Virus record (IMG/VR): IMGVR_UViG_3300021379_000877
Span: 1 to 42,218 of that record
Reading direction: 5' to 3' (one strand)
Length of the DNA: 42,218 nt
From: a virus
Shown: piece after piece, positions 16,125-37,848 of the stretch
Layout: each line of letters begins with the position of its first letter
Position numbering within the stretch: the stretch's first letter is position 1
Made by a program: the position numbers and the translations under genes
The notes under the pieces: model-generated
Told to the model about the DNA's origin: nothing
What the model saw: the letters and a program-made list of their open reading frames with translations, nothing else
Databases searched by the model: none

Positions 16125-16460
16125 TTATCTACCTAATATCCAACCAATTGCTAGATCTCCAACTTTGTCTTCAATCTCTGAGCTATTCTTCCAAAAATCT
16201 GGATCTGCTATTGCATGACGAGTACCCTGTAGGTATGTAATAATATAAGCTGGATGTCCACCGACGTCTGTGCCTTTAAAGTCTTCAACGAATTCCCACT
16301 CGTAGTCTTTTTTGTAGTCTAGATCGTCTAGCTCATCACCAATTTCTTCAAACGAGTCTGCAGCTTTCACAGCCTTCTTTAAGGCTTTAAGCATTTTATT
16401 ACTGTCCACTATTGTGGAATACTCATTCAAGAAAGATTCAAATGTTGGTAAGTATTTCAT
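16125..16460 (-). CDS. Capsid-targeted small acidic protein
   Basis: 111 residues. Begins MKYLPTFESFLNE, matching the T4 capsid-targeting peptide MKTYQEFIAE; cleavage after LNE by a gp21-type prohead protease would release a ~98-residue mature protein. The remainder is acidic (EEIGDELDDLDY) with a C-terminal half rich in Gly/Ile. Packaging into the head and injection with DNA is inferred from the peptide. Last gene before a terminator. Confidence 0.65.
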   Translation of the reverse strand: MKYLPTFESFLNEYSTIVDSNKMLKALKKAVKAADSFEEIGDELDDLDYKKDYEWEFVEDFKGTDVGGHPAYIITYLQGTRHAIADPDFWKNSSEIEDKVGDLAIGWILGR

Positions 16461-16464
16461 AGTC

Positions 16465-16527
16465 TTAATATATTGGGTTCCATGGTTTAATCCAGTATTC
16501 CCAAAAGATTTGTTTTGCTTTTTTCAT
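16465..16527 (-). CDS. Possible 20-residue micro-ORF
   Basis: ATG at 16527 overlaps the stop of the upstream polyprotein gene as TAATG and reads 20 codons, MKKAKQIFWEYWIKPWNPIY, to a TAA 4 nt before the next start. It is basic with three Trp and could be a membrane-active peptide or only a coupling leader for the next gene. Nothing but the coupling and the tight fit supports it. Confidence 0.3.
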   Translation of the reverse strand: MKKAKQIFWEYWIKPWNPIY

Positions 16528-17579
16528 TAGTATTCAAATGGAGGTGCTTCACCGTCGTTGTTCATACCGTACCACACGCCCTTATGTTGCCAGTAGTACC
16601 ATCCGTATTTATCGTCAACAACTACCTCAAACTTACCTTTCGGTAGGTCTACGTCCTTCTTAGGCGATCTTGCAATGAACTTAAGTACTGGTACACCGTC
16701 ATCCCACGTCTTTTTAGTAGAACGAGCCTCGACTCTTTCACCATCAGCGTATGCCATGTGATATTCACCACCGTCAATCTCTTGAGCTAACATCATAGTA
16801 GGAGTTGCGTCTGACTCATTAATAGATGACTCAGCCATTTCTCTCTTATAGACTTGTTGTAACTCTTTGAATTCTGCTTTTAGTTTAGAACCAATGGTTT
16901 TCTTAATACCCCAATAGTCACCAAAAATAAGTGGAGCTACTGCGCCCATTCCAGCCTTTTGAACCTGGTTAGCGTATTTTCTAGCATAGACAGATCTATC
17001 AAACCAGTCTAACGCAGCTTGAGCCATTTCCTTTGAGATCTTCTGACCTTCAATTTCGGAAGTTGAACCCTTTGCTACCATCTTAAATAGTTTTTTAGCT
17101 GGAGCCTGTCTTGCTTCCTTTAACTCGTTTATTGACATGATGTATTTCATGGTTGGTATTGATTCATTAACCTTACCATTTTTAAACGTCCATGTGTAAC
17201 CTTTACCTTCTAATGTTCTATTACCTAGAATCCCGTACATATCTCTTTTGAAACTATCAAAGAAAATGGCGGAACCTCGCTTCCAATGTTTTGAACTCTG
17301 TACGAATTTTCTTGCCTCTTCGTCATCAGCACTCTGAAGATATACTCGATCTTCTTCCCATGACATTAAAAGTCCATCTCCCCTTAGGTCAATAGATTCA
17401 CCTTCCCACCATGTATCGTCAACCTCGTCGTATGAATCGCCTTTATCATCTGGGTCACCAAACATGTCAAAATCTGGCCATTCAGATATACCGTATTTCA
17501 GTGCTTCTTTTTCTGTCTTGAAAAAATTGATTTGAGTATATTCACTGGTCTTTTCGCTTACGTAAAATATTCTTGCCAT
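16527..17579 (-). CDS. Capsid-targeted polyprotein, three modules
   Basis: 350 residues. Sites of the form (L/I/V)xE occur at KVNE139, NELKE155 and SSINE255. The second lies in MKYIMSINELKE (144-155), an internal copy of the N-terminal capsid-targeting peptide. These sites would cut the chain into a ~139-residue first module (acidic, Trp-rich), a ~100-residue helical basic module (AKKLFKMV... to KREMAE), and a ~95-residue strand-rich module ending GWYYWQHKGVWYGM. T4 gp21 cuts after (L/I)xE. Head-internal location is inferred. Modules are not recognised. Confidence 0.7.
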   Translation of the reverse strand: MARIFYVSEKTSEYTQINFFKTEKEALKYGISEWPDFDMFGDPDDKGDSYDEVDDTWWEGESIDLRGDGLLMSWEEDRVYLQSADDEEARKFVQSSKHWKRGSAIFFDSFKRDMYGILGNRTLEGKGYTWTFKNGKVNESIPTMKYIMSINELKEARQAPAKKLFKMVAKGSTSEIEGQKISKEMAQAALDWFDRSVYARKYANQVQKAGMGAVAPLIFGDYWGIKKTIGSKLKAEFKELQQVYKREMAESSINESDATPTMMLAQEIDGGEYHMAYADGERVEARSTKKTWDDGVPVLKFIARSPKKDVDLPKGKFEVVVDDKYGWYYWQHKGVWYGMNNDGEAPPFEY

Positions 17580-20290: not shown

Positions 20291-22372
20291 TTATAGTGTT
20301 TCAATTTGGTTATCCTTCATCCATGTTTCTAGCTTCTCAACAGCTGCGTTAAATATTCTGCTTCTGTTAGTCTCCATACCGAAGTTGTTGAAGTATTCTT
20401 TCATTAGATAATAAGCTGGTTCGATTGACTCGCCGTTCGCTTGCATATCTCTAATATGTTTACTAACTTCTAGTGCAGCCACCGCGCCCATCCAGAAGAA
20501 CATGGTGTAACCAGTTATATCATTCCAGAATCTTTGGATAAATTTGTAACCCATTTCACCGAACTCTTTCTTACCTTTATCACCATAAGCATATAGTTCA
20601 GATCTAGTCTTGTTGTCGAAAGAGCCTAACCAAATAGACATATAGTGGTGTTCACCTTTATAGACCTTGTCCATGAAACCACCATCAATAATCTCTTTTG
20701 ATTTTACTTTAATCCATTTTGGGTATTTAATCTTACCATTCTCTTTAACCCACTTGCCATACTCATAAGAGCCTAGGCTTTCGTTAACCACCGATTCACT
20801 AAATAAAGTTTCTCCAGTACCAGACTCAATGCTTATTACAGCATTAGGATATTCTTTTTGTAATTCATTAAATACTGCAGGAACCGCAGCTGGCGTATCA
20901 ACTAATTCTTGTTTAACAACCATACCACTACTAATTACTACAATACTTACAGGATAACTTCCTTTCTTTGCAGCTTTATGGATTGCACCTCTTTTAGCTT
21001 CATGTAGTGGTCTAATGTATTTCATTTGCTTTGACTCTTTCATAGCGTCTATTTCTTTTGATTTTTCAATTGCCCAATCAACACCTTCATCTCCACCCCA
21101 GATTAACCAAGCTACATAGCCGTTATCTTTCCAAGGTTCGTCTTTATGTTCTGGTGCAATTTTAGAATTCTTTCTGTGTCTATTAAATGCAGACATTCTC
21201 TTAACTGTATCTGCTGAGATCTTTTCACCTTTAGCTAGTTGATGAGCTCTTGCCCAACCAACTGGAGTTCCAGCAGGTACTTCATCTCTGCCATACTTCT
21301 CTTTCCAATCAATGGCCATCTGTGCATTCTTCTTTGCAGCAGCCGGATAATCATCATAAGAGTCTTCTTCGTTTAATACAGACTCTTTAAGGTCCATATC
21401 AAGTTCTTTACTAATTTTCTTTAGATCTTTATCATTATCGTAGAATACTTTGACCCATTCAGGCTGTTGACTCTGAGGTCTCGATACAGGTATATAATTA
21501 ATTTGAACATACTTGTCACCTCTTCTAGTTTGACCATACTCAACACCTAAATGCTGGTAAACCTTTTCCTTTTCAAGGCTATCTTTAGCATTATCTAAAT
21601 AATACTTATCTATAGACTCTGGTAGAGGTATTGAATCTTCGTATCTTAGTTTTCTATATAGTTGATTAGATAGAATGTAGTTACTAGCGAAATCTTCTAA
21701 TTCTTTTTCACTACCAAACCTACGACCACCTTTATCAATATCATGTCCTTTATAGTAAAGGTTGTAATGAGCGCCTTTTGAATCCTCTTTAGTTTTAAGA
21801 TAAACTATATCATCATTGCCAATATATTTCTTAGGCATCTTACCTTCATTAACTGACTCTTTAATAATATTATCTAAAACCATCGCATGATAAATGTCAG
21901 AACCTACACCACTTAGGTCTTCACTGCCTAAATGTTTATTACCATACTTCTTAATATAGTTATCTTCTAGATATTCAATCTTGTCCTCTATAGACATTCT
22001 ATTAATCTTGGCTCTGTTCTTGTAAACCCATTTCTGAAATTCTAAAAGGAAAAAAGAATTGTAGAGAGGCTCTTCTAAACTCTCATCCATTTTATCAATT
22101 AAGTCTTGTCTACCTAATTGTTTGTAGACTTCTTTTCTTACCTTTTCCATTTTCTCTGCGTACTCAGGATCGTCGCCTCTATTGAAAACAACTTGTTGAG
22201 TTAGAGAACCACTGATCTTCTTTACATCTTTCTTTCTGGTCTTAATTAACCATGCTGCAAGATCCTTGATACCCAGGTCTCTAAATCTACCTTCGGCATC
22301 AGGAGCATCTGAATGATGAAATTCAGGAGCGCCTTTGGGCTTCTTCTCGTTAAGTGGTTTGATAAATCTCAT
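20291..22372 (-). CDS. Capsid-targeted polyprotein, five modules
   Basis: 693 residues. Begins MRFIKPLNE. Further (L/I/V)xE sites end at E176 (KESVNE), E335 (KESVLNE), E458 (MKYIRPLHE) and E531 (SESVVNE), so a gp21-type protease could release five proteins of roughly 167, 159, 123, 73 and 162 residues. Module 3 holds a motif common in phage proteins, GTPVGWARAHQLAKGE...TVKRMSAFNRH and AWLIWGGDEGVDWA; module 4 has KKGSYPVSIVVISSG and TPAAVPAVFNELQ, also seen in other phages. Modules 1, 2 and 5 are not recognised. Starts after GATAAATAA, near T4's late box. Packaging is inferred. Confidence 0.75.
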   Translation of the reverse strand: MRFIKPLNEKKPKGAPEFHHSDAPDAEGRFRDLGIKDLAAWLIKTRKKDVKKISGSLTQQVVFNRGDDPEYAEKMEKVRKEVYKQLGRQDLIDKMDESLEEPLYNSFFLLEFQKWVYKNRAKINRMSIEDKIEYLEDNYIKKYGNKHLGSEDLSGVGSDIYHAMVLDNIIKESVNEGKMPKKYIGNDDIVYLKTKEDSKGAHYNLYYKGHDIDKGGRRFGSEKELEDFASNYILSNQLYRKLRYEDSIPLPESIDKYYLDNAKDSLEKEKVYQHLGVEYGQTRRGDKYVQINYIPVSRPQSQQPEWVKVFYDNDKDLKKISKELDMDLKESVLNEEDSYDDYPAAAKKNAQMAIDWKEKYGRDEVPAGTPVGWARAHQLAKGEKISADTVKRMSAFNRHRKNSKIAPEHKDEPWKDNGYVAWLIWGGDEGVDWAIEKSKEIDAMKESKQMKYIRPLHEAKRGAIHKAAKKGSYPVSIVVISSGMVVKQELVDTPAAVPAVFNELQKEYPNAVISIESGTGETLFSESVVNESLGSYEYGKWVKENGKIKYPKWIKVKSKEIIDGGFMDKVYKGEHHYMSIWLGSFDNKTRSELYAYGDKGKKEFGEMGYKFIQRFWNDITGYTMFFWMGAVAALEVSKHIRDMQANGESIEPAYYLMKEYFNNFGMETNRSRIFNAAVEKLETWMKDNQIETL

Positions 22373-33983: not shown

Positions 33984-34218
33984 GTCTATTCTTTATTAAA
34001 TCGGACTCTCCATTTTGGAAATCTTGGTAAGGCAATGACTTGTCTTTCTGTCCAACATGAGGACCGTTAACCATTATAGTGTCTTTATATGGGTTTGTTT
34101 CAACGCCTTGATCTTCTAGCCATGTCATCATATCTTTCACAGAACCTTTGAATTGTCTAATCCTTTCTAACTCAGGATGGTCTGTAGCGAAGTCTTCAAA
34201 TAATTGTAAGTATTTCAT
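33964..34218 (-). CDS. Capsid-targeted small protein
   Basis: 84 residues. Begins MKYLQLFEDFATD, a variant of the capsid-targeting peptide seen in five other proteins here, though without a clean LxE. The rest is charged with MMTWLEDQGVETNPYKDTIMV. Start overlaps the stop of the next capsid-targeted gene by 1 nt (TAATG). Confidence 0.6.
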   Translation of the reverse strand: MKYLQLFEDFATDHPELERIRQFKGSVKDMMTWLEDQGVETNPYKDTIMVNGPHVGQKDKSLPYQDFQNGESDLIKNRHGRKDS

Positions 34219-34661
34219 TAGTCTAATCTGCCGTATTTACCTGAGGACATATCTTTACCAAATTGGTCGATCGCCTTAGTTCTGTAGTCAATATATGCTG
34301 GATCTTCGTGATGATTTTTACCACCAGCTCCGTAGTAAGAATTAAACCTATAAGAAGTAATTGCATCACCCTTTGCTTTAAAAGCCTTCTCCATATCTTT
34401 TACTATCTTAATAATCTTTCTCTTCTTCGATGAGTTGATAGGTCCGTCAAACTTTTCACTAGACGGTGCAAACGAAGCAGTACTAGAAGTTACCTTAATG
34501 TATTGTAGAGTTTCTGGTGCGTTCTCAATTAGCTTAATAAAGTCCTTTAAGCTATCTGCAGAACCAGCCCAAGAGGACTCAATCTTCTTACCATTAATAG
34601 TAGAGTAGGCCATTTCTACCTTCTCACTTAAGAATTTGTAATATGGTCTAATGTATTTCAT
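34218..34661 (-). CDS. Capsid-targeted basic protein
   Basis: 147 residues. Begins MKYIRPYYKFLSE; cleavage after LSE would leave a ~134-residue basic protein with SSKKRKIIKIVKDMEKAF and a Gly/Asn/His-rich loop (YYGAGGKNHHEDP). The late-type box 2 nt before the ATG and a terminator upstream fit a virion protein. Possibly a DNA-binding internal head protein. Confidence 0.65.
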   Translation of the reverse strand: MKYIRPYYKFLSEKVEMAYSTINGKKIESSWAGSADSLKDFIKLIENAPETLQYIKVTSSTASFAPSSEKFDGPINSSKKRKIIKIVKDMEKAFKAKGDAITSYRFNSYYGAGGKNHHEDPAYIDYRTKAIDQFGKDMSSGKYGRLD

Positions 34662-36686: not shown

Positions 36687-36926
36687 TTAAGTCATCCAAC
36701 CTCCAGCTGCTTCCCAGTCTTTATGGGAAGATAAAAGAGAATACGACTCAAAAGAAAGTGTTACTTCAACATAACCCCCGGTTATTGACTCCGGGCATTT
36801 AGACTCGCTCAGATACCAGTCTGGCGCATTCTTAATCCTACCATTCAGAAAATCAAATAGTGGATCTATGTGCATGTGGTGGACCCATATATTGATGTGC
36901 ATACATGCCATGTTTGCTTTACCCAT
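36687..36926 (-). CDS. Small unknown protein
   Basis: 79 residues, His-rich start MACMHINIWVHHMHIDPLFD, then LNGRIKNAPDWYLSESK and strands GGYVEVTLSFESYSLL. Overlaps the ATP-grasp gene by 8 nt. No family recognised; the His cluster might bind metal. Confidence 0.6.
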   Translation of the reverse strand: MGKANMACMHINIWVHHMHIDPLFDFLNGRIKNAPDWYLSESKCPESITGGYVEVTLSFESYSLLSSHKDWEAAGGWMT

Positions 36927-37848
36927 TGTCTACGCTAAATCTTTTTTTGTCAAAGTTAATTGTTGAATCAATATCTTTCTTTTGGTAAGTATCTATCTCC
37001 GTGCTGTCGGTAGAATTTAGTTTTTTACCATAATAATCTTGATAGACTTTTTTGTAGAAAGGTGCCATCACACCATAGAGAGGAGCAAACTCTGAGGACA
37101 TCTCTACTACCCATGGTTTCCCATCAGTATCTACCATTAAGTCAATTGAATATAGATCTAGGTTTTCATGTGCCTCGTTCATTTCCTGAAATACTTCATT
37201 CCAATCTTCTGGCATTTTATCTAGATTTTTCAATACGTACTTAAAATAGAGTTTATCCTCTTTCTTCTTTGTCATCTCTTTGGTCTCCTTGTTACCATGG
37301 ACTCTTTGTACCCACATAACAGGCTCACCTCGCCACATCATTATTCTATGTTCTTCATCGATGTCTATCTTCTCGCTGAAGACTTCAAAATCTTCTAAAT
37401 CCGCTTTCTTAGCATCCTCTAAAGTATCAAACTTTTGAATACCCATTCCTGAGTATCTGTTATCTGGTTTTGCTATGATAGGGAATTTTAACTGATCTAG
37501 ATCTTCCGGTTCAGAAACTGTCTTAGGTACATGCTTAGAGTCTTTATGAGTCTCATGCCATTTTACCTTTGATGCAATTTCCATCTTCTTTTCCTTAGGA
37601 TTATAGATTAGGTCTTTAGGAGTACCTGCATCTAATAGCCTTTGAGTGTGGATATTACAAAAGTTAATCACAGGCATATCAGACTTAAATGGCTGATCGC
37701 CCTTTGTAAAGAGTTGCATAAAATTTCTAGTGTGTGCAGATTTATCCGTTACATACTTAAAGTCTGTAAGATCTGTCGATACACACATAACAACTTTATG
37801 CAGTCCTCCACTTTTCTCGTTAAGGAATGTTTGAAAATCTTTAATCAT
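36919..37848 (-). CDS. ATP-grasp enzyme with capsid-targeting N-terminus
   Basis: 309 residues. MIKDFQTFLNE matches the capsid-targeting peptide, cut predicted after LNE. The body is ATP-grasp: LKFPIIAKPDNRYSGMG (ATP-binding Lys and Gly loop), EEHRIMMWRGEPV, and LYSIDLMVDTDGKPWVVEMSS (metal-binding Asp/Glu). ATP-grasp ligases join a carboxylate to an amine or thiol, often adding amino acids to peptides or proteins. Substrate unknown. Late-type box 2 nt upstream fits a packaged protein. Confidence 0.75.
   Translation of the reverse strand: MIKDFQTFLNEKSGGLHKVVMCVSTDLTDFKYVTDKSAHTRNFMQLFTKGDQPFKSDMPVINFCNIHTQRLLDAGTPKDLIYNPKEKKMEIASKVKWHETHKDSKHVPKTVSEPEDLDQLKFPIIAKPDNRYSGMGIQKFDTLEDAKKADLEDFEVFSEKIDIDEEHRIMMWRGEPVMWVQRVHGNKETKEMTKKKEDKLYFKYVLKNLDKMPEDWNEVFQEMNEAHENLDLYSIDLMVDTDGKPWVVEMSSEFAPLYGVMAPFYKKVYQDYYGKKLNSTDSTEIDTYQKKDIDSTINFDKKRFSVDNG

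Follow-up and report, generated by a model that had tools for sequence, protein, structure and literature searches.

A candidate cargo polyprotein with predicted prohead-protease sites between shuffled modules in a T4-type phage

Introduction

The internal proteins of phage T4 (IPI, IPII, IPIII and Alt) are variable cargo encoded behind a conserved short N-terminal peptide that ends in a glutamate-terminated protease site, with one cargo protein per gene (PMC9026906, PMC3012670). The gp21 protease of T4 cuts after L/I-X-E, and genetic work on IPIII has assigned targeting to residues 4 and 7 of the peptide and processing to residues 8 and 10 (PMC9026906). Several prohead-protease sites in one chain, with a motif that ends in Glu, are known from T4 gp22 and gp67, SPN3US gp53 and gp54 and phiKZ gp93, where they belong to scaffold or to propeptides destined for removal (PMC10052503, PMC5694885). 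Polyvalent proteins of phages and conjugative elements combine many variable domains per chain and have been suggested to accompany the DNA into the host; they carry known enzyme domains and often a metallopeptidase acting in cis (PMC5512222).

Here we analyse a marine phage gene for a 693-aa protein (P0001) in a virus record of 42,218 bases, probably a fragment, which we refer to as the window. Like the T4 internal proteins, the protein begins with a short peptide closed by a glutamate-terminated site, and a gp21-type protease is encoded by phages of the same kind, in this case its relatives. Unlike them, it joins several modules in one gene with predicted processing sites in between, and the chain's own peptide is only 9 aa long and lacks the aromatic residue at P4. 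Its sites differ from those of the T4 core proteins and giant-phage propeptides in lying between modules that also occur independently, and they fit a protease acting in trans. With no Pfam domain in P0001 (among its relatives only DUF5824 scored above the cut-off), the known effector or enzyme domains and the metallopeptidase of polyvalent proteins were not found in it. We consider it probable, at roughly 0.74, that the gene belongs to a T4-type phage and that its product is a cargo polyprotein from which the prohead protease releases separate internal head proteins.

Results

Predicted sites and products

The five glutamates that the initial annotation had proposed as gp21-type sites are where it placed them, in the contexts MRFIKPLNE9, ESVNE176, ESVLNE335, MKYIRPLHE458 and ESVVNE531 (Table 1). 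The recurrence of the motif held for the longer patterns only: bare [LIV]xE occurs 11 times in the protein against 11.4±2.9 in shuffles, a chance-level count for which we dropped bare (L/I/V)xE as evidence, whereas ES[LIV]{1,2}[NTSH]E was counted three times (0.01 expected) and the 9-mer [MLF][KR][YFHT][IVL][KRQ][PSLT][LF]xE twice (0 expected), at the N-terminus and at one internal position. LNE9 closes the N-terminal peptide, and at the equivalent position the relatives L001-L005 carry LNE or LTE, in each case a predicted prohead-protease site of the (L/I)xE form. MRFIKPLNE is similar to single-gene peptides, yet short and without the P4 aromatic that matters for T4 targeting. The internal MKYIRPLHE, previously described as a full copy of the targeting peptide on other proteins of the window, is indeed a peptide copy, but one of the chain's own N-terminus; it is shorter than the peptides of the other genes (MKYLPTFESFLNE and MKYIRPYYKFLSE) and has no aromatic residue at P4 as they do.

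Table 1. Coordinates of the polyprotein gene, its predicted junctions and products, and other genes of the window
Feature	Position	Strand	Basis or relatives
Single gene, targeting peptide MKYLPTFESFLNE	16125..16460	minus	Family F8; module also inside polyproteins L025/L054, L055, L046
Second fusion gene, 350 aa, inner MKYIMSINE at about aa 144-152	16527..17579	minus	aa 1-150 and 143-350 are separate genes in relatives
Polyprotein ORF, 693 aa (P0001)	20291..22372	minus	One ORF in interval; colinear relative L001
Predicted product E, aa 532-693, M7, all-helical	20294..20779	minus	Single gene in L008, L011, L016, L022
Junction ESVVNE, aa 526-531, 18-nt seam GAATCGGTGGTTAACGAA	20780..20797	minus	Motif; pLDDT <50 at 528-531
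Predicted product D, aa 459-531, M6	20780..20998	minus	Different module instead in L002; absent in L003; present in L004, L042, L052
Internal targeting-peptide copy MKYIRPLHE, aa 450-458	20999..21025	minus	Motif; pLDDT <50 at 446-463
Predicted product C, aa 336-458, M5, phrog_2859-like domain	20999..21367	minus	Encoded alone, preceded by MKHIKLFEQFVTE, in L017 among others
Junction ESVLNE, aa 330-335, tandem with LKE330	21368..21385	minus	Motif, breakpoints; pLDDT <50 at 330-336
Predicted product B, aa 177-335, M3 + M4	21368..21844	minus	M3 apart in L005, L045, L052; M4 in L003, L042
Degenerate junction ESID, aa 252-255, M3/M4	21608..21619	minus	Breakpoint at aa 253; relatives read ESVLNE, ESVNE or ESVVTE
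Junction ESVNE, aa 172-176, tandem with IKE172	21845..21859	minus	Motif, breakpoints; pLDDT <50 at 166-189
Predicted product A, aa 10-176, M1 + M2	21845..22345	minus	M1 single gene in L016, L018, L019, L021, L022; breakpoint about aa 93, 12 supports
Degenerate 'sealed' junction ESLEE, aa 97-101, M1/M2	22070..22084	minus	Breakpoint cluster at aa 93; pLDDT <50 at 97-105
N-terminal peptide MRFIKPLNE, aa 1-9, predicted capsid-targeting, gp21-type site at end	22346..22372	minus	Motif; equivalents MKYIQTLTE, MRYIKSLNE in relatives
Single gene, targeting-like N-terminus MKYIRPYYKFLSE	34218..34661	minus	N-terminal sequence
ATP-grasp-like protein, targeting-like N-terminus MIKDFQTFLNE	36919..37848	minus	TTL above cut-off, R2K_3 just below

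The AlphaFold2 model of the whole protein has a mean pLDDT of 66.6, with low-confidence segments that include residues 1-27, 97-105, 166-189, 229-276, 330-336, 446-463 and 528-531. All five sites and both degenerate junctions lie within segments of pLDDT<50, to which a thin alignment at the junctions may contribute; given 63 glutamates, the chance of all four inner sites falling in such segments is 0.0065. M7 modelled alone is all-helical with a pLDDT of 94.7. In the PDB, no structure matched the full model below 1e-3 and none matched the M7 model, and a sequence search with P0001 returned no match. Residues 342-468 match phrog_2859 at 1.3e-12; in the polyprotein, this head-associated domain of M5 is one module among several. 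The M5 domain shares 57% identity with a stretch of the HGTV-1 prohead protease gene product and resembles domains in prohead protease, XkdF-type, portal and capsid genes of other phages. It also matches inside genes annotated as major capsid in Roseobacter CRP phages and Synechococcus S-CBS1 and S-CBS3 (H10-H13, H17, H20-H22, H28). Basic charge as a hallmark of DNA-bound internal proteins did not prove general among the products (pI 5.8-8.5).

Module shuffling among relatives

A scan of IMG/VR returned 25 relatives, and further scans with other polyproteins added arrangements. L001 is colinear with the 693-aa protein at 88%. Across the 23 related polyproteins compared (466-1337 aa), among them L002, L003, L004 (1247 aa), L005 and L025/L054 (1337 aa), modules are gained, lost or reordered. 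M1 (aa 10-94), M5 (aa 336-441; L007, L012, L013, L017) and M7 (aa 532-693) each occur as single genes as well, and most single-module genes start with peptides such as MKHIKLFEQFVTE or MKYIKLFESFVN, which bears out the expectation that modules would be shuffled in relatives and present alone behind MKYI/MKHI-type peptides. In two further relatives (L020, 9986-11137, and L024, 9953-10906) M1 is fused to a region that, judged by eye, is PAP2-type-phosphatase-like. Cutting the 23 polyproteins at their junctions gave 143 module instances; these fall into 48 families, of which 17 are shared.

We then compared the breakpoints, defined as ends of shared segments with at least 3 supports, with the positions of the motif. 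Within 6 residues of [LIV]xE lay 130 of the 167 breakpoints, against 33.7±5.2 expected for random positions in the same 23 proteins (maximum 50 in 2000 trials), although the 167 are not all independent, as some are common to related polyproteins. The polyproteins had been picked by their junction motifs; since the permutation keeps the motif density of each protein, this selection does not account for the excess. The ends of shared segments peak at the P1 glutamate. In the 693-aa protein the breakpoints fall at about 93, 174, 240-253, 328-337, 440-459 and 521-533, so that the chain consists of seven shuffle modules and not of the five originally counted. The number five stands for the products predicted from the four inner sites, because M1 and M2, like M3 and M4, are joined by degenerate junctions: ESLEE (about 97-101) and LPESIDK (about 252) are without the second site of a full junction.

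Junction form and the DNA seam

Many junctions carry sites in tandem, for example IIKE↓SVNE↓, GVDE↓SVVNE↓ and TLEE↓SVVTE↓, and in 61% of 87 contexts the first junction glutamate has L, I or V at P3, compared with 22% in general (p=1e-14). The junctions are variable at P2 and P4, and E or K occasionally occupies P1'. These tandem junctions resemble the end of targeting peptides (KLFE-SFVNE). An aromatic residue at P4, however, is present in 78% of 85 single-gene N-terminal peptides and in 1% of 70 inner junctions (p=5e-25). In the T4 peptide MKTYQEFIAE we take residue 7 to be P4, residue 8 P3 and residue 10 P1. Because the aromatic P4 is missing, and given the roles of the IPIII residues, the inner junctions look like targeting peptides that have kept the processing half and lost the targeting half, which fits an origin by fusion of once-separate targeted genes.

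The ESVV(N/T)E junctions are also alike as DNA, where they form an in-frame seam of 18 nt. Codons agree between different junctions of one protein at 88%, compared with 51% expected and 50% in the control, and this agreement ends at the edges of the 18 bases. A search of IMG/VR with the 18-mer GAATCAGTAGTTA(A/C)TGAA found at least 120 stretches. Among the matches listed, 167 of 171 copies were in frame within an ORF, and the seam-bearing ORFs (at least 111 distinct) had a median length of 584 aa and up to 11 junctions per chain. Such conservation suggests that the seam may help modules to recombine; it could instead stem from recent spread of the junctions. That the system is a set of cassettes in marine T4-type phages, the 18 nt serving at once as recombination seam and, in the translated form ESVV(N/T)E, as the place where the prohead protease would free the modules in the head, is a tentative proposal to which we give somewhat less than even odds.

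The protease and capsid protein of the relatives

The window, as a fragment, is uninformative on the absence of a gp21-type protease, which was not found in it. A protease was anticipated for the complete genome, and long relatives do encode it, including a 212-kb record that also has the 1337-aa polyprotein. In all, 19 of the 25 records of at least 89 kb that carry modules or the seam contain a PF03420 (gp21-type, S77) protease; about a quarter of the records of this length gave no PF03420 match, nor did the shorter fragments searched. In the five long records checked in the first set, gp23 adjoins the protease. The catalytic-type motifs GELDHP (HP) and ISSR (SSR) are kept in 19 of the 19 copies read. 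All 19 also carry (V/I)NE↓(S/A) 38 residues after ISSR, just past the protease domain, and this is the same motif as at the cargo junctions. It is plausible from this sequence likeness that a gp21-type protease accepts Val at P3, since the protease's own junction reads (V/I)NE↓(S/A) throughout. Around residue 43, the capsid protein of the relatives reads LYE↓DA or LNE↓GF; its match to mature T4 gp23 lies downstream of this point.

In five records (G006, G021, G022, G024, G025) and in Tenacibaculum phage PTm1 gp300 (L105), a single ORF combines the gp21-type protease with a long scaffold-like region. Two records of 234-236 kb, G033 (L240) and G031 (L241), have a second short PF03420 match, in a 132-aa open frame, beside the full protease.

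Isolates and packaged-protein candidates

The phage collection yielded no isolate that encodes a polyprotein of this kind. PTm1 was considered and set aside, having the protease-scaffold fusion and no clear polyprotein, as were pelagiphage HTVC008M and the Melnitz phages, with which only the DUF5824 region is in common. Runs of genes with similar N-termini (MQGFKTFLSE, MLSFKQFVSE) occur in Kyanoviridae (HTVC008M, L086; Melnitz-3, L087; phage C48C1, L088); they include a cytidyltransferase-DUF5824 protein and are perhaps packaged proteins too. In the window itself, the ATP-grasp-like protein may be a ligase that is perhaps packaged in the head.

Discussion

Our reading of the gene as a source of modular cargo, which the initial annotation had put forward, gains from the shuffling, the single genes and the protease in relatives, with the number of modules corrected to seven. 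We infer cleavage, packaging, delivery and a function for the products along the following lines. The short N-terminal peptide would bring the chain of modules into the prohead core, where the gp21-type prohead protease would cut after (L/I/V)xE in the flexible junctions. Five internal head proteins of about 8-20 kDa would be released and stay in the capsid, and upon infection they would pass into the next host cell together with the DNA.

An uncut multidomain protein would account for part of the same data if ES(V/L)xE were a flexible linker and a good place for recombination, with one working chain in the head or in the infected cell. The ESLEE and ESIDK junctions persist without the full double site, and the conservation of the 18-nt seam as DNA is explicable by recombination alone. 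However, the linkers keep P3 and P1 of the protease rule, often in tandem; where other chains have ESVVNE, L002 has ESNQLNE, so that LxE is kept and the remainder changed; and the protease carries the same motif at its own junction, all of which makes an uncut chain unlikely. The chain might also be cut in the prohead and serve assembly, as a core or scaffold-type protein whose pieces are digested or expelled like those of T4 gp22, gp67 and gp68. T4 core proteins are indeed cut several times by gp21 (PMC9026906), and M5 has its counterparts in the prohead protease or capsid genes of other phages. Yet M7 is a confidently folded domain, modules are swapped freely among relatives, several of them being single targeted genes, and the 48 module families look like variable cargo; we regard a core role as quite unlikely.

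Injected multidomain proteins are known in phages (PMC5512222), and the gene could in principle encode an effector of the polyvalent type, one that is injected in one piece and is then processed in the host or by a different protease. With neither a peptidase nor any other known enzymatic domain found in the chain, and with sites that match the phage's own prohead protease, we hold this to be very unlikely. Expression of separate proteins from internal starts, such as the ATG of MKYIRPLHE, was rejected as next to negligible: Met is the first residue of the inner copy in this protein and in L001, L005 and L025, but it is not conserved, being replaced by Leu or Phe in L002, L003, L004, L055 and L056, and the ES-type junctions have no start codon. 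A cargo polyprotein cut by the prohead protease is thus the reading that we prefer.

Conclusions

In RNA viruses it is standard for one polyprotein to give rise to several mature proteins; in the open-access literature we found no report of a tailed phage that delivers a shuffled string of internal proteins in this way. New here are junctions that appear to have retained the half of the T4 targeting peptide that serves processing and lost the half that serves targeting, and a conserved 18-nt in-frame seam. If our reading is true, it would explain a large class of unannotated marine phage genes, predict the mature termini of some 48 module families and provide a sequence tag by which head-borne phage proteins could be found, and it would make the loading of a T4-like head with several proteins from one gene directly testable. 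Should the cassette proposal also be true, each phage could rearrange a multi-protein payload within a single gene.
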